Source: a virus
Length of the DNA stretch: 42,222 nt
Strand: one strand, 5' to 3'
Virus record (IMG/VR): IMGVR_UViG_3300005531_000214
Coordinates: 1-42,222 of that record
Shown here: positions 1-18,344 of the stretch, piece by piece
How the letters are laid out: every line of letters begins with the position of its first letter
How positions within the stretch are numbered: the first letter of the stretch is position 1
Made by a program: the position numbers and the translations under genes
Notes under the pieces: model-generated
Databases searched by the model: none
The model's input: only the letters and a program-made list of their open reading frames with translations
What the model was told of the DNA's origin: nothing

Positions 1-1416
1 ATGCGCGACGTCGTGGCGTCGCTCGGGGCCCAGGCGCTCACCGATATCGGGAACGCCCAGCGCTTCGTGTATGCGCACGGCGACAGTGTGCGCTACGTGC
101 CGGCGCAGGAGGCGTGGTACGTCTACGACGGCCGGCGCTGGGCCTTGGACGAGACGTGCGAGGTCGAGCGGCGGTGTCAGGCGACGGCCATGGACATCTA
201 CCGCGAGGTGCCCCACACGCTCGATGCGGACGCGCGGAAGGCGCTCGCCAAGTGGGCGCAGGCCTCGGAGAGCCATAGCCGGCTCCGGGCCATGCAGGCG
301 TGCGCGCAGGCGATCGAGGGCATCGCGATTCGGCCCGATGCCTTCGATGCGGATCCGTGGGCCTTGAACGTCGCCAACGGGACGATCGACCTCCGGACGG
401 GCCAGCTCCGGCCGCATGCCCGCGAGGATCTCATCACGAAGGTCGCGCCCGTCGCGTACGACCCGCTCGCGCGGTGCGATCGGTGGGAGCGGTTCGTGAG
501 CGAGATCGCAGCCGGTCGCGCGGACTTAGTCGCGTTCCTCCAGCGGGCGCTCGGCTACTCGCTCACGGGTCTCACGCGGGACCAGTGCTTTTTCCTCTGC
601 TACGGCGCTGGCGCGAATGGCAAGACGATCCTCTTCGAGACGCAGCGGAAACTCCGGGGCGGCTACGGGCTCGAGGCCGACTTCTCGACGTTCGTGGAGC
701 AGCCCGTCGAGCGGCCGCGGCCCGATCTTGCGCGGCTTGCGGGCGCGCGGATGGTCTGCGCCGAGGAGGGGCGCGAGCGGGCGCGGCTCGCGGAGTCGGT
801 CATCAAGTCGCTCACGGGCGGCTCGACGGTCACAGCGCGGTATCTCTACGGCCGGGAGTTCGAGTTCGAGCCGACGTTCAAGCTCTGGCTCGCGGCCAAC
901 CATCGGCCGCAGATCGCGGCCACGGACTACGGCATGTGGCGCCGCGTGCACTTGGTGCCCTTCGACGTGCGCTTCGAGGGGGAGAACCGGGACGACACGC
1001 TCCGCGAGACCTTGGCCGCCGAGCTGCCTGGGATCCTCGCGTGGACGGTCGCCGGGTGTCTCCTCTGGCAGCGCACGGGCCTCCGGCAGCCGCCCTGCGT
1101 CGAGCGTGCGACGGCCGACTACCGCGCCGAGTCGGATATCGTTGGCCAGTTCCTAAAAGAGCGGTGCGCCGAGGGCGGCGAGACGCCGGCGGGCGCGCTC
1201 TACCAGGCGTACCGGGCGTGGGCCGAGGAGAACGGCGAGCGGCCGATGACGGCGCAGATGTTCGGTCGCCGGCTGGGCGAGCGGGGGCTCCCGGTCGAAC
1301 TCCGGCGGCTCCCCGCCGGCGTGGCGAAGATCCGACTCGGGGTCCGGCTCCTCTGGACGACCGCCAGGAGTGCTGTAACCGATGTCACCGCTGTAACCAA
1401 TCCGGGCGCCCACTAA
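1..1416 (+). CDS. P4-family phage/plasmid replication helicase (D5_N + SF3)
   Basis: A 471-residue replicative helicase of the phage/plasmid primase P4 family. Residues about 1-180 resemble the D5_N region that precedes the motor. The superfamily 3 ATPase follows, with a Walker A motif GAGANGKT at 202-209, an acidic Walker B-like MVCAEE at 251-256, the sensor asparagine in WLAANHRP (N300) and basic W313-R314-R315. The catalytic primase half found at the N-terminus of the longer (about 770-residue) family members is not visible, so this is probably a helicase-only member. The gene opens at the first base of the window. The window's last bases supply a good ribosome site for this ATG if the ends are joined. 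Its last codons (VTDVTAVTN) are themselves part of an iteron-like repeat, which fits a Rep protein next to its origin. Confidence 0.9.
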   Translation: MRDVVASLGAQALTDIGNAQRFVYAHGDSVRYVPAQEAWYVYDGRRWALDETCEVERRCQATAMDIYREVPHTLDADARKALAKWAQASESHSRLRAMQACAQAIEGIAIRPDAFDADPWALNVANGTIDLRTGQLRPHAREDLITKVAPVAYDPLARCDRWERFVSEIAAGRADLVAFLQRALGYSLTGLTRDQCFFLCYGAGANGKTILFETQRKLRGGYGLEADFSTFVEQPVERPRPDLARLAGARMVCAEEGRERARLAESVIKSLTGGSTVTARYLYGREFEFEPTFKLWLAANHRPQIAATDYGMWRRVHLVPFDVRFEGENRDDTLRETLAAELPGILAWTVAGCLLWQRTGLRQPPCVERATADYRAESDIVGQFLKERCAEGGETPAGALYQAYRAWAEENGERPMTAQMFGRRLGERGLPVELRRLPAGVAKIRLGVRLLWTTARSAVTDVTAVTNPGAH

Positions 1417-2197: not shown

Positions 2198-3244
2198 ATG
2201 CTGACACCGGTGCTGCGGTTGGCGAAGGGCGGGCATACGAGCCGCGAGCAGGGCATGTGCGCGATGGAGGCTGCGGCCTATGTGGCGAACCTGCCGCACT
2301 CGGACCGGCCGGAGTGTGTGTCGCCCGTGATCGGGGTGTGGTTCCGGAACTGGAACGACGCGATGGACGACGACGACCGGCAAATGCTGGCGCCCTACAC
2401 GGTCAAGGTGCTGGGCACGGCGACCGGCCAGGGCGACGAGCTGACGCGCTCGTGGATGGCGCTCGACTGGCTCTGTCGCGTGCAGACCCCAGCGTGGCTC
2501 CGGCTCGCGGGACTCACGGCCGAAGCGCAAGCGCTCGAAGCGACGGCCCGCATCGTCGACGCCGTGACTGCGCGCGTAGCCCAACCCGCGCTCGATACAG
2601 CGCGAGCGAAAGCGAGCGCCGCGGGGGCTGCCGCGTGGGCTGCCGCGTGGGCTGCCGCGGGGGATGCCGCGGGGGATGCCGCGGGGGATGCCGCGTGGGC
2701 TGCCGCGTGGGCTGCCGCGAGGGCTGCCGCGGGGGCTGCCGCGAGGGCTGCCGCGTGGGCTGCCGCGTGGGCTGCCGCGAGGGCTGCCGCGGGGGATGCC
2801 GCGGGGGATGCCGCGGGGGATGCCGCGTGGGCTGCCGCGTGGGCTGCCGCGAGGGCTGCCGCGGGGGCTGCCGCGTGGGATGCCGCGTGGGCTGCCGCGG
2901 GGGCTGCCGCGAGGGCTGCCGCGAGGGCTGCCGCGGGGGATGCCGCGGGGGATGCCGCGGGGGCTGCCGCGGGGGATGCCGCGGGGGATGCCGCGTGGGC
3001 TGCCGCGAGGGCTGCCGCGGGGGCTGCCGCGTGGGCTGCCGCGAGGGCTGCCGCGGGGGATGCCGCGGGGGATGCCGCGTGGGCTGCCGCGAGGGCTGCC
3101 GCAAGGGATGCGCTCCGACCTACGGTCGTCGCGCTCCAGCGGTCAGCGCTCGGGCTGTTAGACGAGATGATCCAGGTCGGCGAGCGTGAGTCGGTGCCGC
3201 TCGTGAAGGAGCGGGTAGCGTATGTGCTGGCGGACAATGGGTAG
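2198..3244 (+). CDS. hypothetical protein with Ala-rich tetrapeptide repeats
   Basis: A 348-residue protein in three parts. Residues 1-105 are a conserved-looking globular domain ([56 protein letters not shown]) of a type common in hypothetical proteins of actinobacteria and their phages. Residues about 140-303 are roughly 41 tandem four-residue units of the form [A/D]-A-A-[W/G/R]. A short tail follows ([20 protein letters not shown]). The tetrad repeat should make a long alanine-rich helix with W, R or G at fixed spacing. The start ATG follows GGGAGCG. The repeat is free of stops in other frames too, but only this frame has normal flanking domains, so the other frames are shadows. Confidence 0.8.
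2615..3106 (+). repeat. 12-bp coding minisatellite, about 41 units
   Basis: Tandem units of the form G(C/A)TGCCGCG(T/G/A)GG run without interruption. Only base 2 (Ala or Asp) and base 10 (Trp, Gly or Arg) vary. All other positions are constant except in the edge units (AGC at the first, GCAAGG at the last). A seven-unit pattern ([28 protein letters not shown]) occurs twice, 11 units (132 bp) apart, which indicates duplication of a larger block. Confidence 0.95.
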
Positions 3245-10307: not shown

Positions 10308-10715
10308 GTGCCGCAGCGGCATGGGGGCGCGCTCAAGCGCGGGGGCGGCTCGCACGCCCCGCGCCCGCGCCTCGCCTCCAAAGCCGAAGCGGTCCGCACG
10401 CTCCAGCGGCTCATCCACGATCCGGCGTGTGTCGCGCGCGTCCAGGCGGCGCTCACCGATCCCGCGACCGATCCCAAAGCGTTCCACGCCATGTGGTGCG
10501 CCGTCTGGGACCGGGTCTATGGGCGCCCGCGCGAATCGCTCGAGCTCTCCGGGACGGTCGGCGCCGTCGTCGAGCACCAGCCGATGACGATCCTCCTGCC
10601 GGCGCTGGACGCGCCACCGCCCGCCCCGCCGGCGCCCACGCACGTCCTGCCCTACTCCGCGCTCCCACCCGACCCGAGCCTCGCGCCCGACGTCGCGACC
10701 GAGGAGGAGCCATAG
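10308..10715 (+). CDS. probable terminase small subunit
   Basis: A 135-residue protein. SKAEAVRTLQRLIHDPACVARVQAALTDPATDPKAFHAMWCAVWDRVYGRPRESLELSG follows the plan of small phage proteins in which a helix of the type '(A)xxVLxRxYGxPxQ' precedes 'ELSG', common among small-terminase-like proteins. There is no ATG in frame, so the GTG at 10308 is taken as start. A GC-rich inverted repeat (TGACC at 10277-10281, GGTCA at 10299-10303) lies just before it. Its position upstream of the large terminase supports the call, although two tail genes intervene. Confidence 0.55.
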   Translation: MPQRHGGALKRGGGSHAPRPRLASKAEAVRTLQRLIHDPACVARVQAALTDPATDPKAFHAMWCAVWDRVYGRPRESLELSGTVGAVVEHQPMTILLPALDAPPPAPPAPTHVLPYSALPPDPSLAPDVATEEEP

Positions 10716-11071
10716 CTGACCTCACCTTCGCCGCACCGGTCGCGACCGTCGGCGAGACGTACACGTGGACGCCGACGATCGTCGATCCGGTCACGGGCGT
10801 CGCACCCGTCCCCGACCTCACGACGTACGCGTCGGGCGAAATAGCGGTGCGGGCCACCCCCGGCGGCGCGATCATCCTCCAGGCGACGACGACCAACGGG
10901 CAGATGACGTTCGGGCCGCCCGGGACCGGGCAATTCACGATCGTCTTCCCCGCTGGGCAGATCACGACGAGCGGCGCCTTCACGTGGGAGTGCAAGTTCG
11001 TCGATGCCGCCGGCAACGTCTCGAAGCCCTTTGGCGGTCAGTTCCTCGTGACACCGACGTTCACGACCTAG
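10712..11071 (+). CDS. BppU-like tail/baseplate N-terminal domain protein, ATA start
   Basis: A 119-residue beta-rich protein beginning (M)ADLTFAAPVATVGETYTWTPTIVDP and ending GQFLVTPTFTT. The text resembles N-terminal domains of the BppU/DUF2479 type that attach fibres to phage baseplates. No ATG, GTG or TTG exists in frame before the fold begins. The only start candidate is ATA at 10712, four bases after AGGAGG within GAGGAGGAG and overlapping the previous stop as ATAG. It stands directly before the giant tail protein and may be its adaptor. Confidence 0.6.
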   Translation: MADLTFAAPVATVGETYTWTPTIVDPVTGVAPVPDLTTYASGEIAVRATPGGAIILQATTTNGQMTFGPPGTGQFTIVFPAGQITTSGAFTWECKFVDAAGNVSKPFGGQFLVTPTFTT

Positions 11072-11079
11072 CCGGCTGC

Positions 11080-14000
11080 GTGTCGATCCTCCGCGGGGTC
11101 TCGGCCGGGAAGGTCACGCAGCCACGGGTCGTCATCGCCCCGTCCGGCCAGTACACGATCTACGTGACCGTGGGCTATAAGGCGCCGCAGCTCCTCTACG
11201 CGACGAGCGTCGGCGCCGCCGCGCAGGCCACGTCCAAGGCGAGCACGCTCTCGCTCGCGCCGGCCACGTTCGGCATCACGACCCAGAACGGCACGGTCCA
11301 GCTCCAGGCGACGGTGAAGGACCAGTTCGGGACGATCGTGAGCCCGACCCCGGCTCTCACGTGGACGACGAGCGACCCACGCGTCACCGTGAGCGGGACC
11401 GGACTCTGTACTGGCGTCGGGACGGGCGCCGCCGCGACGATCACGGCGACGGTAACCGGGACGACAGTGAGCGGCACGGCGACCGTGACGACGCCGGCCG
11501 CCGTGCCGACGACGCTCGCGATCAACGCCGGCTTCTCGACACTGGCCCAAGCGGCGGCGGCGGCCGGCACCCGCTTCGGCGTCTCGATCAACGACTCGTA
11601 CGAGAGCCACCCGAACTACAGCCAGAACTACGCGCAGACGGCGGGCGCGGGCGGGATCGTCGCCTTCGAGAAGTGGCACTCCCACTGGTTCAGCGGGTCG
11701 TTCACGAACACGGGCCTCTCTGGGGTGACGACCAATTTCCTAGAGTTCGCGCCCGAGATGGCGCGGCTCCAGGCGCAGGGGACGGCGTTCGGCGTCACGT
11801 ATATCGTCGATGAGGGCATCGATAGCTCGGGGAGTCTCTATCCCGGCATCGCGAGCCTCGTCACGAACGCGACCCAAGCGGAGACCATGCTCCAGACGAT
11901 GGTCGCGCTCACCACGGGGTTCTTCAATCCCCAGCCGCTCGGGCCCGCGTGGAATAGCGCGACCAACTACACGGTGGGGCAGGTGGTCTCGTCTGGCGGC
12001 GTGAACTACGCGTGCGTGACGCCGAACGTCAACACGCCGCCAGCGGGGAATATCTCCGCGTGGATGCCGATCCCGGTCGCGACGATCACGGCGTGGAGCT
12101 CGACCACCGCGTACACGCCAGGGCAGATCGTCACGAATGGCGGCCACACCTACACGTGCTTCGCGGCGAACACGAACCAGGCGCCGCCGAACGCCCAGTT
12201 CTGGCTCTGCACCGAGTCCGGCGTGGTCGATACCTATACGCCGATCAACGAATGCCTCTTAGGCGGCAGCGGCCAGGGCTTCTTTAACCGCTTCCTCGGG
12301 CCCTCGCCGAACAACTGGGTCCCGCGCGCGCTCAAGTACACGTACGCCGGCGATCCCGGCGCACGGAAGTACACGATCAACAACGGTCACGGCGAGTCAA
12401 CGGCGGACAGCGCGCAGCGCGCGGCGGTGCTGTCGCTCGCGAACGCCGCGATCGCCGTCTTCGCCGGGATCGGCCTCAGCGCGAGCAAGCTCACGGTCGG
12501 CATCGAAGGCCACGTCGATTGCCAGGAGATGCAGACGTCAGGCGGGTCGTTCGACACGACCAATACGCTCGCCTGGCTCAACAGCATCGTGGCGACCGGT
12601 GCGAGCTATGCGATCACCGAGTTCGACGTCACGGACCACATGCTCGAAGGCTCAGGCGCTGCGGGCGTTGCGCAGCGCCAGCAACTCGTGGGGCTCGCGT
12701 ACACGAATTTCCTGAACGTCGTCAAGCAGGCGAACGCCAAGCCAGACCACTTCACCTGCTGGCAACTCCGCAGCCCCGAAAACTGGCTCCAGAGCTTTAC
12801 GCCCCGGTCGGACGGGCTCCCGATGTTCCCGAACCCGTACGCCGACTTCAGCTTCACGACGCTCCCCGCCTACACGGCGATCGTGACGTGGCTCACGGGC
12901 CAATCGGGGCTCCAAGGGTCGATCACGCTCAACGACGCCCTGCCGCACCAGATCCCGGTGACGCTCGCGGACCAGTGGGGTGGGGCGATGTCGCCCTCGG
13001 TCGCCACCTGGTCCTCGACGGACACGACTAACCTCCCCGTGACGAGCGGGGGCGTCGTCCAGGCGAGTGCTGGTGGCCACAGCGCCACCATCACGGCGAC
13101 GGTCGCGAGCGTGACGCCGAACCTGACTGCCTCCGTCTCGGTGAGCAGCGCGGCGGCCGCTCTGGCGGCGATCGCCGTCTCACCTGGGAACGCCACGATC
13201 TCGACCGGCACGATCATCGAGTCGGCGAGCGAGACCGACCAGTACGGCAATCCGTTCGGCGGCAGCGGGAACGGCAACGTCACGGTCTACGCGGCTGGCG
13301 GGTTCGGCCTCTCGGCCAATATCCCGGGGGTGGCGGCGGCGACGACACTCCTCTGGACCAAGGGCCGCATCCTGGTCGATGCGATCCGGGCGGCCGGCCT
13401 CAATAGCGGTGTCGGGCTCCAGGCGATCGACTCCGACGGGGCCGGGACGAACAAGAAGTGGGAGGTCTACTTCCAGACCGGCAGTACTGCCTTCGTGCAG
13501 TTGGTCTGCGCTCCCTACAAGACCGGGAGCGTCCGCATGGGTCCTGCGCCCACCGCGTTCATCAACGAGACGGCGCTCCCGGCGAACGGGAACTACATCG
13601 AGTGGTTCGCCGGGTACGACCAAGCGGCGGGGCACTGCATCGTCGCGTTCTTCGACTCGGCCGGCAACCTCTTCAACGACGGCTCGCATACCTCGACGGC
13701 GACGGTCGCGATCACCGGGGCAGCCGCCCTCAATACCGATGGCGGCGCGAACGGTCGGGTCACGACGAACAAGGGCTTCAACGCGCACGCCGTGGCGCAG
13801 GCCGCCACGCACGACGGTCAGGCGCTCTACACGAGCGCGCTCCCCGCGCAATCGTCGCAGTGGACCAAGCCGCTCGCGAGCGACAGCGGGATTCAGGCCG
13901 GCTGGTACATGGGGGACGCCTCCAGCGGCGCGGTGACGAGCGGGGCGGCCTTCGCGGGCGGTCAAGCGCTCGTGCAGACGAGTGCGACGGGTGGCGTCGG

Positions 14001-15285
14001 GGACGCGGGCGCGTGGTCACCGCCCTCGGGCGCGACCAGCGTCAACTGGGCGAGCGATACGCCGAGCGTCGCGACGGTGAGCCCGGCGACGGGGACTGCG
14101 ACCACGGTGACGCCCGTCGCGCCCGGCACCGCCAATATCACCGCGACGGCGCCCACCAATCGCGCGATCTCGGGGACCGCCGTCATCACGGTCCAGGCGA
14201 CTCCCGTCCCCACGCAACTCACGATCGCGCCGACCGCCGTGACGCTGGCGGGGACCGGGACCACCGTGCAGCTGGTCCCGACCGTGGACGATCAGTTCGA
14301 CAACCCGATGACGGGCGTCACGGTCACCTACGCGTCGAGCAACACGGCGGTCGCCACGGTCTCCGCCGGCGGGCTCGTGACGTGGGCTGGGGTCGGGAGC
14401 GCGACGATCACGGCGACCGTCGCGAGCGTCACGCCGAATCTGACGGCCACCTGTGCCGTGACCGCGACCGCCGCACCAACGTCGATCGAGCCCAGTGGGA
14501 TGACCGTCATCCTCAACACGGGCGTCCTGACGGCGGTCCCGGCCAACGGGCAGACGATGACGGGCGGCTCGGTCTTCCAACTCGTCTCGCCCCCGAACGG
14601 CTCATTCACGACCACGGGGGACGCCAACCAACTCGTGCCGGTCCCCCCGAGCCAAGGGACGGGGCTCCGCGTGCTCTATCCGGCGTCCCTCCCCGGCGGG
14701 TTCGCGCCCGTGATCTTCGGCTTCACGCTCCCGGGCGCGGGGAAAACGCTCTACATCCGGATGCGCGTCCGGTACTCCCCCAACTGGACGAACAACGGGA
14801 ACGTCGGCACCAAGATTTGCGAGCCGCAGTTCGTCAACAGCAATAACGGCGGGAACGAGAACGACGCGATCGGTGGGCACTGCGATAACCCGCCCCAGGC
14901 CGACCAGTACCTCCAGGTGCTCCAGCAGTGGGGCAACGGGCTCCCGCTCGCGTTCCGCAACCTCCCCGACGGCAACCCGACGAGCTGGGCGCGGGCCGAC
15001 CCCAACGGGCAACTCGCAGGCCCGACGGCCGGCACGTGGCATACGATCGAGCTCCTATTCACGCCGCAATCGTCCACAAGCACGGCGGACGGCGGTTGCC
15101 GGATCATGAACGACGGCAACGAGTGCGTGAACGCCACGAACGTCCAGTGGGTCCAGGGCTCGGACTCTCAGAACTGGGGCTACATCCGCTTCGAACCCAC
15201 CTACGGCGGCGGCCATAACAGCCCGCCAAACGTCACACCCTTCCTCTACTGGGATTTCGACGAGCTCTACGTCAGCTCGAAGTGA
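11080..15285 (+). CDS. giant modular tail protein / depolymerase: Ig-like, GH10 with CBM5/12 insertions, jelly-rolls
   Basis: About 1401 residues from GTG 11080. Rough domain order: N-terminal tail domain 1-57; Ig-like (Big_2) 58-143; GH10-like glycosidase 144-608; Big_2 611-690; Big_2 first half 695-731; inserted concanavalin-like domain about 732-978; Big_2 second half 985-1040; Big_2 1041-1138; C-terminal jelly-roll resembling polysaccharide lyases 1138-1401. The GH10 signatures are the opening GTRFGVSIND, the acid/base Glu in TPINECL (E391, cf. VNEA), EGHVD, and the nucleophile Glu in ITEFDV (E514, cf. TELDV), followed by HFTCWQLRSPENW and a closing TAIVTWL. Two related CBM5/12-like modules, AWNSATNYTVGQVV (290-333) and AWSSTTAYTPGQIV (338-378), interrupt the barrel just before E391. 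It probably binds and cleaves a host surface glycan. The natural substrate is unknown. Confidence 0.85.
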   Translation: MSILRGVSAGKVTQPRVVIAPSGQYTIYVTVGYKAPQLLYATSVGAAAQATSKASTLSLAPATFGITTQNGTVQLQATVKDQFGTIVSPTPALTWTTSDPRVTVSGTGLCTGVGTGAAATITATVTGTTVSGTATVTTPAAVPTTLAINAGFSTLAQAAAAAGTRFGVSINDSYESHPNYSQNYAQTAGAGGIVAFEKWHSHWFSGSFTNTGLSGVTTNFLEFAPEMARLQAQGTAFGVTYIVDEGIDSSGSLYPGIASLVTNATQAETMLQTMVALTTGFFNPQPLGPAWNSATNYTVGQVVSSGGVNYACVTPNVNTPPAGNISAWMPIPVATITAWSSTTAYTPGQIVTNGGHTYTCFAANTNQAPPNAQFWLCTESGVVDTYTPINECLLGGSGQGFFNRFLGPSPNNWVPRALKYTYAGDPGARKYTINNGHGESTADSAQRAAVLSLANAAIAVFAGIGLSASKLTVGIEGHVDCQEMQTSGGSFDTTNTLAWLNSIVATGASYAITEFDVTDHMLEGSGAAGVAQRQQLVGLAYTNFLNVVKQANAKPDHFTCWQLRSPENWLQSFTPRSDGLPMFPNPYADFSFTTLPAYTAIVTWLTGQSGLQGSITLNDALPHQIPVTLADQWGGAMSPSVATWSSTDTTNLPVTSGGVVQASAGGHSATITATVASVTPNLTASVSVSSAAAALAAIAVSPGNATISTGTIIESASETDQYGNPFGGSGNGNVTVYAAGGFGLSANIPGVAAATTLLWTKGRILVDAIRAAGLNSGVGLQAIDSDGAGTNKKWEVYFQTGSTAFVQLVCAPYKTGSVRMGPAPTAFINETALPANGNYIEWFAGYDQAAGHCIVAFFDSAGNLFNDGSHTSTATVAITGAAALNTDGGANGRVTTNKGFNAHAVAQAATHDGQALYTSALPAQSSQWTKPLASDSGIQAGWYMGDASSGAVTSGAAFAGGQALVQTSATGGVGDAGAWSPPSGATSVNWASDTPSVATVSPATGTATTVTPVAPGTANITATAPTNRAISGTAVITVQATPVPTQLTIAPTAVTLAGTGTTVQLVPTVDDQFDNPMTGVTVTYASSNTAVATVSAGGLVTWAGVGSATITATVASVTPNLTATCAVTATAAPTSIEPSGMTVILNTGVLTAVPANGQTMTGGSVFQLVSPPNGSFTTTGDANQLVPVPPSQGTGLRVLYPASLPGGFAPVIFGFTLPGAGKTLYIRMRVRYSPNWTNNGNVGTKICEPQFVNSNNGGNENDAIGGHCDNPPQADQYLQVLQQWGNGLPLAFRNLPDGNPTSWARADPNGQLAGPTAGTWHTIELLFTPQSSTSTADGGCRIMNDGNECVNATNVQWVQGSDSQNWGYIRFEPTYGGGHNSPPNVTPFLYWDFDELYVSSK

Positions 15286-15289
15286 CGGG

Positions 15290-16738
15290 ATGCGACGCGA
15301 CGCGGGCCAGCTCCTCTGGCGGCCCCTCTCGGCGCCGCAGGCCAAGTTCGTGGCGAGTACCGAGTTCGAGGTGCTCTATGGCGGTGCGAAGGGAGGGGCG
15401 AAGACCGAATCGCTCGTCATCGCCCCACTCCAACAGATTGCGCACCCGCGCTTCAAGGGATTGCTGCTCCGCGAGAAGTGGGACGAACTCAAAGAGATCC
15501 ATGCGCGCTGCAAGACGTACTACAGCGCCGTAGGCGCCACCTTCCACGGCGGCGACAGTCAGTGGCGGTTCCCGTCCGGCGCGTTCGTCGAGATCGGCTA
15601 CCTCGAGGACGATGCTGACCTCAAGCGCTACCAGGGGCGCGAGTGGACCTTCGTTGGGTTCGACGAACTCGGGAATCTCAAAGACGAGTTGACGTGGGCC
15701 AAGATGCTCGCTGAGATCCGCTCCCCGGATCCGGCGCTGATCCGGATGGCGCGCGGGACGGCGAACCCCGGCGGGAAGGCGCATGCGTGGCTCAAACAGC
15801 GGATGATCGTGGCCACCGATCGCGGCCGCACCGTCGCGCGCGATCCGACGACCGGCCTCGCGCGGCGCTTCATCCCGAGCAAGGTCACGGACAATCCGAT
15901 CTATGCGAATGACGCGCAGTACATGGCGGTCCTCCGTGGCCTGCCGGACACGCAGCGCCGGCAGCTCTTGGACGGCGACTGGGATGCCGGCGAAGGTATG
16001 GCCCTGGATGAGCTGTCGCGCGCCGTGCACCTCATCCCGCCGCGAGCCGTCCCTGACTGGTGGTACCAGTGGGGCGCGCTCGATATCGGGTTCGGACACT
16101 GCTGGTGCTTCGCCTGGGCGGCCATGAGCCCCGATGGTCGGGCGTACGTCTGTGATTCGCTCCACGGGCAGCGGGATCGCTACGACGAGGTGGCGCGCCG
16201 GATCGTCGAGCAGGTCCCGCCGGCCGTGCTCGCCAATGTGGTCTGCGACAACTATGCGCGCCAGGAAGGCTCGCGTGGGCACCGCGACCGGACGCCATCC
16301 GTGATGGAGTTGTTCTCGGAGTACGGCATCATGATGGCCGAGGCCAACCAACGGCGCGTCCTCGGCCTCAATAACCTCCGGCTCTGGCTGGGCTGGCGGC
16401 TCGCGGACGGCAAGACGAAGACGCCGCGGCTCCGCTTCTTCGATACGCCGGGCAATCGCCTCACGTTCGATTGTCTCGAGCGGATGGTAGTCGATCCCAA
16501 GAACGTGGAAGACGTGCTCAAGGTGCACGCGGACGCACAGGGCCGGGGCGGCGACGACCCGTACGACACGGTGCGCTACCTCATGGCTGCCCACCCGTAC
16601 ACGCCGAACGAGCCGGTGACGCCCGATCCGGTCGGGCCGGACCGCGATCCCGCGCACTGGTTGCCGCGAGACCCGGACGACACCGATCCTGACGATCCCA
16701 ACCCCGAGACGATCGGGGGACTCTCCTACGGCTTCTGA
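15290..16738 (+). CDS. terL: terminase large subunit
   Basis: A 482-residue packaging motor. The ATPase has Walker A GGAKGGAKT (31-39) and Walker B FVGFDE with D125-E126. The RNase H-like nuclease domain shows D265 (ALDIGFG), D320 (VVCDN) and D422/D426 (DDPYDTVRYL). It starts five bases after the giant tail gene and five bases before the next gene, inside the same transcription unit. Its size and motif set are normal for headful or cos terminases. The packaging type cannot be told from sequence alone. Confidence 0.96.
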   Translation: MRRDAGQLLWRPLSAPQAKFVASTEFEVLYGGAKGGAKTESLVIAPLQQIAHPRFKGLLLREKWDELKEIHARCKTYYSAVGATFHGGDSQWRFPSGAFVEIGYLEDDADLKRYQGREWTFVGFDELGNLKDELTWAKMLAEIRSPDPALIRMARGTANPGGKAHAWLKQRMIVATDRGRTVARDPTTGLARRFIPSKVTDNPIYANDAQYMAVLRGLPDTQRRQLLDGDWDAGEGMALDELSRAVHLIPPRAVPDWWYQWGALDIGFGHCWCFAWAAMSPDGRAYVCDSLHGQRDRYDEVARRIVEQVPPAVLANVVCDNYARQEGSRGHRDRTPSVMELFSEYGIMMAEANQRRVLGLNNLRLWLGWRLADGKTKTPRLRFFDTPGNRLTFDCLERMVVDPKNVEDVLKVHADAQGRGGDDPYDTVRYLMAAHPYTPNEPVTPDPVGPDRDPAHWLPRDPDDTDPDDPNPETIGGLSYGF

Positions 16739-17576: not shown

Positions 17577-18344
17577 ATGAGTGTCCTCGCAGTCCGAACG
17601 GTGGCCGGCGCGGCCTACGTGCGCGCGGGCGGCGGCACGCCGGGCGACATCACGACGCTCATGACGGCGCTCGGCGTCACGGTCAACGGGTTCTTCGACT
17701 GCCGGACCGGGATCGTGCTCAGCACCCAGCGCACGGTCGCGAACTGGAATGACGTCTCCGGGCACTCGCTCTCGCTCGCCCAGGCGACGCTCGCCAAGCA
17801 GCCGTCCGTCGCGGCCGATGGCTCGCTCTTCTTCACCGGCGCGGGCGGGATGAACCTGCTCCAGTCGGCGAGCGCCCTCCTCAACATCAGCGGTAGCTAC
17901 ACGTTGATCGTCGTCGGCGCCTTCACCGGCTCGCAGACCGGGACGGGGTATATCGCCGCGATCGGGGACGCCTCGAACGAGTTCCTCGGGATCAACCAGG
18001 GGGGCGGGAGCAACGTCTGGGCGGCCAAAGGCGGCAAGGTTCTGGCGACCGCGACGACCGGCGTCTCGACCGCGGCCACGCAATACCGCGTGGTCTCGGC
18101 AACGCTCAATGGCACGACGCCGCTGGGCATCCAGGTGCCCAACCAGGCGATCGTGACCGCGGCGATCGGGACGGCGAATACGAACGCGTCTGCCGTACTC
18201 TGCGCCGGTGGGTTCAACGGCGCCTCGGGGAGCGCGCAGTGCAATCTCCGCGCGATCATCTGCCTCCCGTCGCTCATCTCGGCCGCGAACCTCGCGCTCG
18301 TCATGGCGTGGGCCGCCGCGAACCACAACGCGGTCGCCGCCTAG
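17577..18344 (+). CDS. LamG/concanavalin-like fibre protein
   Basis: A 255-residue protein. The pattern VANWNDVSGHSLSLAQATLAKQPSV is the usual opening of phage-borne LamG-like jelly-rolls ('W.D.SGnG...QAt...rP'). It continues with YTLIVVGAFTG, the strand pair around GYIAAIGDASNEF and a closing helix NLALVMAWAAANHNAV. Such domains bind glycans. Together with the giant GH10 protein it points to a surface-polysaccharide receptor. Confidence 0.75.
   Translation: MSVLAVRTVAGAAYVRAGGGTPGDITTLMTALGVTVNGFFDCRTGIVLSTQRTVANWNDVSGHSLSLAQATLAKQPSVAADGSLFFTGAGGMNLLQSASALLNISGSYTLIVVGAFTGSQTGTGYIAAIGDASNEFLGINQGGGSNVWAAKGGKVLATATTGVSTAATQYRVVSATLNGTTPLGIQVPNQAIVTAAIGTANTNASAVLCAGGFNGASGSAQCNLRAIICLPSLISAANLALVMAWAAANHNAVAA

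Follow-up and report, generated by a model that had tools for sequence, protein, structure and literature searches.

The window, which spans an entire virus record (42,222 bases), contains a gene for a 1401-amino-acid protein that carries a GH10 glycosidase domain (Table 1). A short N-terminal part is followed in this protein by an Ig-like region, the split GH10 domain, Ig-like (Big_2) domains and a C-terminal region. Pfam matched two CBM_5_12 stretches, two Big_2 stretches and the second half of GH10, all above the curated cut-offs, and the second Big_2 stretch likewise lies C-terminal to the GH10 domain. The Ig-like part resembles PHROG_215, 'structural protein with Ig domain' (E 3.9e-23), which is the sole structural label on the protein. 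Two stretches of the C-terminal part were compared with PDB sequences and gave no credible match.

Table 1. Positions of the GH10 gene, its domains and its flanking genes in the window
Feature	Position	Residues	Strand	Basis or remark
Small protein	10712..11071		+	Ends 8 bases 5′ of the GTG start of the next gene; faint Ig-like (Big_13) similarity under the Pfam threshold
1401-aa multi-domain protein	11080..15285		+	Open frame, GTG start, Pfam, PHROG
GH10 barrel, first half	11533..11934	152-285	+	Strands 1-3, helices 1-3; hhalign without the insert, model
Two tandem CBM5/12-family modules	11947..12213	290-378	+	PF02839; deletion scan; model
GH10 barrel, second half	12217..12897	380-606	+	Strands 4-8; PF00331, hhalign
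E391, predicted acid/base, motif INE	12250..12252	391	+	Just after strand 4; invariant column
E514, predicted nucleophile, motif ITEFD	12619..12621	514	+	In strand 7; invariant column
Big_2 (bacterial Ig-like, group 2)	14212..14451	1045-1124	+	PF02368, 38.7 bits
Terminase large subunit	15290..16738		+	PHROG_979, E 3.4e-39

The GH10 gene is tied to the packaging and structural module because its stop lies only 4 bases 5′ of the terminase large subunit gene. As the terminase gene is followed by genes for a P22-like portal and a major head protein, the window is, by gene content, a phage of the short-tailed type. The GH10 gene sits among the packaging genes, apart from the later virion genes further downstream. 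The apparent start of the small protein encoded just upstream is none of ATG, GTG and TTG: an ATA there overlaps the preceding stop and follows GGAGGAG. Elsewhere in the window, a protein with a long degenerate Ala-rich repeat is encoded at 2198-3244, and a forward frame of 714 Arg-rich residues at 5212-7356 matches no family and is probably not a coding frame. A second possible adhesin-like protein, which by eye resembles a concanavalin-type fold and has no Pfam match, lies between the terminase and portal genes (17577-18344). Neither an Rfam match nor a tRNA was found in the 42,222 bases.

An earlier note on this DNA had described a GH10-type barrel in a phage tail protein from motifs that all lie at the residues quoted there: GTRFGVSIND at 163-172, INECL with E391, ITEFDV with E514 (123 residues on), WQLRSPENW at 561-569 and TAIVTWL at about 599-605. 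Pfam, profile comparison, a PDB sequence search and a structure model agree on the family and the fold. The Pfam GH10 profile (PF00331) matched residues 400-602 of the whole protein with 27.2 bits, against a curated cut-off of 22.1, and the excised domain with 30.1 bits (E 3.8e-7); over all searches the score was 27.2-31.7 bits, and the match lay in the second half only. The nearest solved structures by sequence were two GH10 beta-xylanases, 9uj3 and 9upa. When the domain was compared by hhalign with a profile of 46 bacterial GH10s, removal of the proposed insert lengthened the alignment from 209 columns (residues 382-606, E 1e-18) to 327 columns starting at residue 153 (E 4e-20). The first half of the barrel on its own gave an E of 0.0056; its divergence has gone so far that this comparison does not recognise it alone.

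An AlphaFold model contained eight strands and eight helices in order, as in a complete (beta/alpha)8 barrel. The order of elements was beta1-alpha1-beta2-alpha2-beta3-alpha3, two small beta modules, and then beta4-alpha4 through beta8-alpha8, with beta1 at 166-170, beta3 at 231-235, alpha3 at 264-282, beta4 at 383-390 and beta7 at 509-518. Confidence was limited (mean pLDDT 65.7, pTM 0.69), the second half being better modelled and stretches of the first half and the insert being weaker. The best 50 listed matches of a fold search against the PDB were all GH10 enzymes, with TM of at most 0.78 by target length, and a fold search of viral models gave no match at E < 0.001. The first half of a first AlphaFold model was discarded; MAFFT had aligned the N-terminal half of the relatives' barrels with the CBM region, and signal peptides with the N-terminal half of the barrel, and neither half-row splitting of the relatives nor added CBM rows repaired the alignment. 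For the model used here the relatives were trimmed and added singly. From sequence and model together we conclude that residues 152-606, approximately, form a diverged GH10 barrel.

The two stretches matched by PF02839 (CBM_5_12) scored 43.6-51.4 bits against a cut-off of 26.2. In a sliding deletion of 95 residues through the domain, only removal of 284-378 clearly raised the hhalign score against the 46 GH10s (from 138.0 to 144.4), and deletions elsewhere left it level or lower. The model places the insert between helix 3 and strand 4, with the strands of the insert at 302-362. The rows of the AlphaFold alignment were picked to leave the insert unaligned, so the model is not independent evidence for its place; the deletion scan is. 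Thus the claim that two CBM5/12 modules interrupt the barrel just before strand 4 was upheld by Pfam, the deletion scan and the model.

The suggestion that these modules flank the active site and frame the entrance to the cleft was not supported. In a (beta/alpha)8 barrel the active site lies at the C-terminal ends of the strands, and the helix-to-strand loops are on the opposite, N-terminal face. Because the helix 3-strand 4 loop belongs to that N-terminal face, the CBM pair is, by its position in sequence and model, attached on the face opposite the cleft; this is a statement about the topology of attachment, the orientation of the insert being modelled at low confidence. The presence of CBM5/12-like modules is ordinary for phages, since they occur in many phage contigs, commonly in proteins with no recognised glycosidase adjacent. 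An alignment with ChiA1-CBM12 covered the first 31 residues only, short of the chitin-binding Trp687. Over the rest of ChiA1-CBM12, neither module has an apparent Trp687 equivalent, and we treat this as a lead only.

The columns of E391 and E514 were invariant among 17 cellular GH10 relatives. N390-E391 and E514 fall in invariant columns and at the expected places in the model, in agreement with the proposed catalytic pair at strands 4 and 7. Neither outcome named by the earlier note as refuting its proposal, a model lacking the TIM barrel or one with E391 and E514 away from strands 4 and 7, was obtained. Conserved GH10 columns were also matched by H478, D516, W561 and W569. The first half presents another picture. 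The ENEMK motif is replaced by EKWHS, and GHTLLW by GTAFGV or GVTYIV, depending on the alignment, neither of which has a His or Trp. Equivalents of N44, K47, H80 and W84, the -2/-1 subsite residues of xylanases, are not kept, and the Q203 equivalent is E476. We take N44, K47, H80 and W84, in the numbering of Cellulomonas Cex, to be the residues that hold xylose; the set is a xylanase trait and no condition of GH10 membership. Because these residues have been lost, xylan is an unlikely substrate. The retention of the catalytic machinery together with the loss of xylose recognition argues, at the level of residues, for a different sugar and, less likely, for lost activity.

Lost activity would fit an adhesin derived from GH10, in which the barrel is inactive and its sole task, shared with the CBMs and Ig-like domains, is attachment to a host glycan. 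Of the strongly conserved columns, the first half retains 9 of 23 and the second half 31 of 67, and these losses, along with those at the -2/-1 subsites and Q203, point that way. So does the tree, in which the window protein stood on an end branch of 3.67 changes per column. Retention of both catalytic Glu residues, N390, H478, W561 and W569 would nevertheless be unexpected after a long loss of catalysis, and we consider such an adhesin unlikely, although it deserves to be kept in mind. With a branch of this length the position of the protein had no support, so the tree does not settle its place or its kinship to a substrate type.

By path length, the rows nearest to the window protein in this tree were GH10s from Holophagaceae (one) and from cyanobacteria; several of the cyanobacterial genes belong to exopolysaccharide clusters. 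Among 83 related bacterial loci, 23 had a GH43 neighbour, of the xylan-degradation type, and 5 had neighbours of exopolysaccharide type (WecG/TagA, Wzy, Wzx or a sugar transferase); both counts are lower bounds, as neighbours were sought with few query proteins. The five (L004, L025, L046, L047 and L049) come from cyanobacteria and one Xanthobacteraceae genome and have GH10 in or beside exopolysaccharide biosynthesis genes. A GH10 gene, prmN, is also found in the promonan cluster of a freshwater Sphingomonas, and its deletion left promonan production unchanged (PMC11340318); even for prmN, therefore, action of GH10 on an exopolysaccharide is putative. Exopolysaccharide as the target of the window protein is a lead suggested by these gene neighbourhoods.

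Published viral GH10s have been listed as auxiliary CAZymes and treated as auxiliary metabolic genes (PMC6460857, PMC8319345), and most close cellular relatives with a telling neighbour adjoin GH43 genes. The window phage could likewise provide its host or the lysate with a plant-xylan-degrading enzyme, the role suggested for GH10s of soil and sediment viruses. The N-terminus of the protein speaks against this: within the first 44 residues hydrophobicity averages at most 0.99 over 11 residues, compared with 2.7 in the GH10 of phage L088, and the absence of any strongly hydrophobic stretch makes a free secreted enzyme unlikely. The GH10 domain is moreover embedded in a large Ig-rich protein whose gene adjoins that of the terminase, and the residues for xylose recognition have been lost. 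We regard an auxiliary xylanase as very improbable.

The gene context and the PHROG structural match make a GH10-bearing 'tail protein' plausible. The same label allows a position on the head. PHROG_215 is filed under head and packaging, and the gene lies among packaging genes rather than with the later virion genes; in a decoration fibre comparable to Ig-domain capsid proteins, GH10 would trim or hold a glycan-rich layer and would not open the way to a receptor. As the PHROG match stems from Ig-like domains, which are common to many head and tail proteins, a head-borne fibre seems to us improbable.

The window query had no GH10 match among 50,697 phage records, in which matches were to the CBM part or insignificant. 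GH10 in viruses nevertheless has precedents, in the published listings and in the phage contigs described below. With a bacterial GH10 as query, only unannotated faecal contigs in the same 50,697 records matched. A few GH10s are present in IMG/VR, in which three queries found no close relatives of the 1401-residue protein. A terminase comparison identified as sister phages L123, a short contig, at 44% and two others at 26%; the annotated phage ctjLE16, whose terminase is 36% identical, has no large gene before the terminase.

At least three further phage lineages carry GH10 genes within or next to their virion genes. L090 encodes a terminase, a portal and a head protease followed by a 450-residue GH10, and has an 88% identical partner from another metagenome (L128). 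A tail sheath, a tape measure and GH10 occur together in L089, with a 68% relative in a second record (L131); these two are prophages of isolates. L088 has a weak tail-collar match, a GDSL-esterase protein, DNA polymerase A and GH10. In this last contig (8375-10981) the GH10 gene, whose product has a signal-peptide-like start, directly follows the GDSL-esterase gene, and a deacetylase-glycosidase pair is possible. The GH10 of L090 (9998-11350), like that of L128, has a different, phage-type domain inserted after strand 4, on the active-site side as judged by sequence position; the inserted domain recurs in another viral contig, L129, at 55% identity. Several candidates were set aside. In L087 an O-antigen-ligase-type gene adjoins the GH10 gene, which probably belongs to the host and flanks a prophage, and, by inspection, the identical lipoprotein-like GH10 of L091 and L092 and the Bacteroidetes-type xylanase with inserted modules in L093 are probably bacterial.

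From these data we infer catalysis, substrate, virion attachment and a role for the modules. Our preferred explanation, held with slightly better than even confidence, is that the protein is a virion-borne depolymerase of host exopolysaccharide with altered sugar specificity. We picture an Ig-rich fibre or spike that is produced together with the packaging and structural proteins and is probably anchored on the virion. An exopolysaccharide or capsular chain from the host envelope would lie in the cleft on the C-terminal face of the GH10 barrel, where E391, acting as acid/base, and E514, the nucleophile, would cleave it by the retaining mechanism of the family. On the opposite face, the CBM5/12 pair may tether the enzyme to a glycan close by or act as a spacer or docking site, and would not line the cleft. 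This depolymerase is favoured by the agreement of Pfam, the PDB search, hhalign and the best 50 listed fold matches on GH10, by the kept catalytic residues with N390, H478, W561 and W569, and by a gene packed against the terminase gene, with a structural Ig match, in a genome with a P22-like portal and major head protein. The N-terminus, the GH10s associated with virion modules in L090/L128, L089/L131 and L088, and the bacterial GH10s in exopolysaccharide clusters, including prmN, are also in its favour. Against it, loss of the -2/-1 residues could mean that activity was lost as well as altered, GH43-adjacent relatives outnumber those in exopolysaccharide clusters, and the prmN deletion was without effect on promonan production. 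The GH10 observation of the earlier note is thus confirmed and its interpretation partly supported.

Should the protein prove to be a virion component that cuts host exopolysaccharide, GH10 would be added to the enzyme families with which phages pass the slime layer of their hosts, and some of the viral GH10s that soil and sediment studies now class with auxiliary carbon-cycle genes would be infection enzymes. A broader proposal, which we advance tentatively and rate somewhat below even, is that GH10 constitutes an unrecognised class of virion-borne depolymerases. Several unrelated phages would have taken up GH10 barrels, at least one would have shifted from xylan to host exopolysaccharide, and phage adhesin modules would have been inserted at new sites in the barrel (behind strand 4 in L090, between helix 3 and strand 4 in the window protein).

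The phage GH10s of L090/L128, L089/L131 and L088 resemble that of the window in lying in or beside a virion module, and L090 also has a module inserted in the barrel, although after strand 4. They differ in keeping the GHT and K47 motifs of the first half, none has CBM5/12, and the N-terminus of L088 is signal-peptide-like. Beta-helical tail spikes have a fold and a domain plan different from those of the window protein. The role proposed here, particle-borne cutting of capsule or exopolysaccharide, is that of tail-spike and tail-fibre depolymerases, for which a review lists glycosidases among the activities and does not name GH10 (PMC7916357). In prmN of Sphingomonas (PMC11340318) and in the Nostoc locus L004, GH10 is linked to bacterial surface polysaccharide and not to plant xylan; these are cellular genes of putative function, with neither a phage structural fusion nor an insert. 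A close parallel in architecture is provided by Xyn10C-like GH10 xylanases of gut Bacteroidetes such as Pm25, in which the barrel is likewise split by two tandem CBMs and the catalytic Glu pair follows the insert (PMC7848910). There the modules are a CBM4 pair between strand 3 and helix 3, on the active-site side, whereas those of the window are CBM5/12 modules between helix 3 and strand 4; the Pm25-type enzymes are xylan-specific and encoded in polysaccharide utilisation loci (PMC7848910), whereas the window encodes a phage protein that lacks several xylose-recognition residues. The helix 3-strand 4 insert is a third way of placing a module inside the GH10 barrel, beside those of the Xyn10C-like enzymes and of L090.
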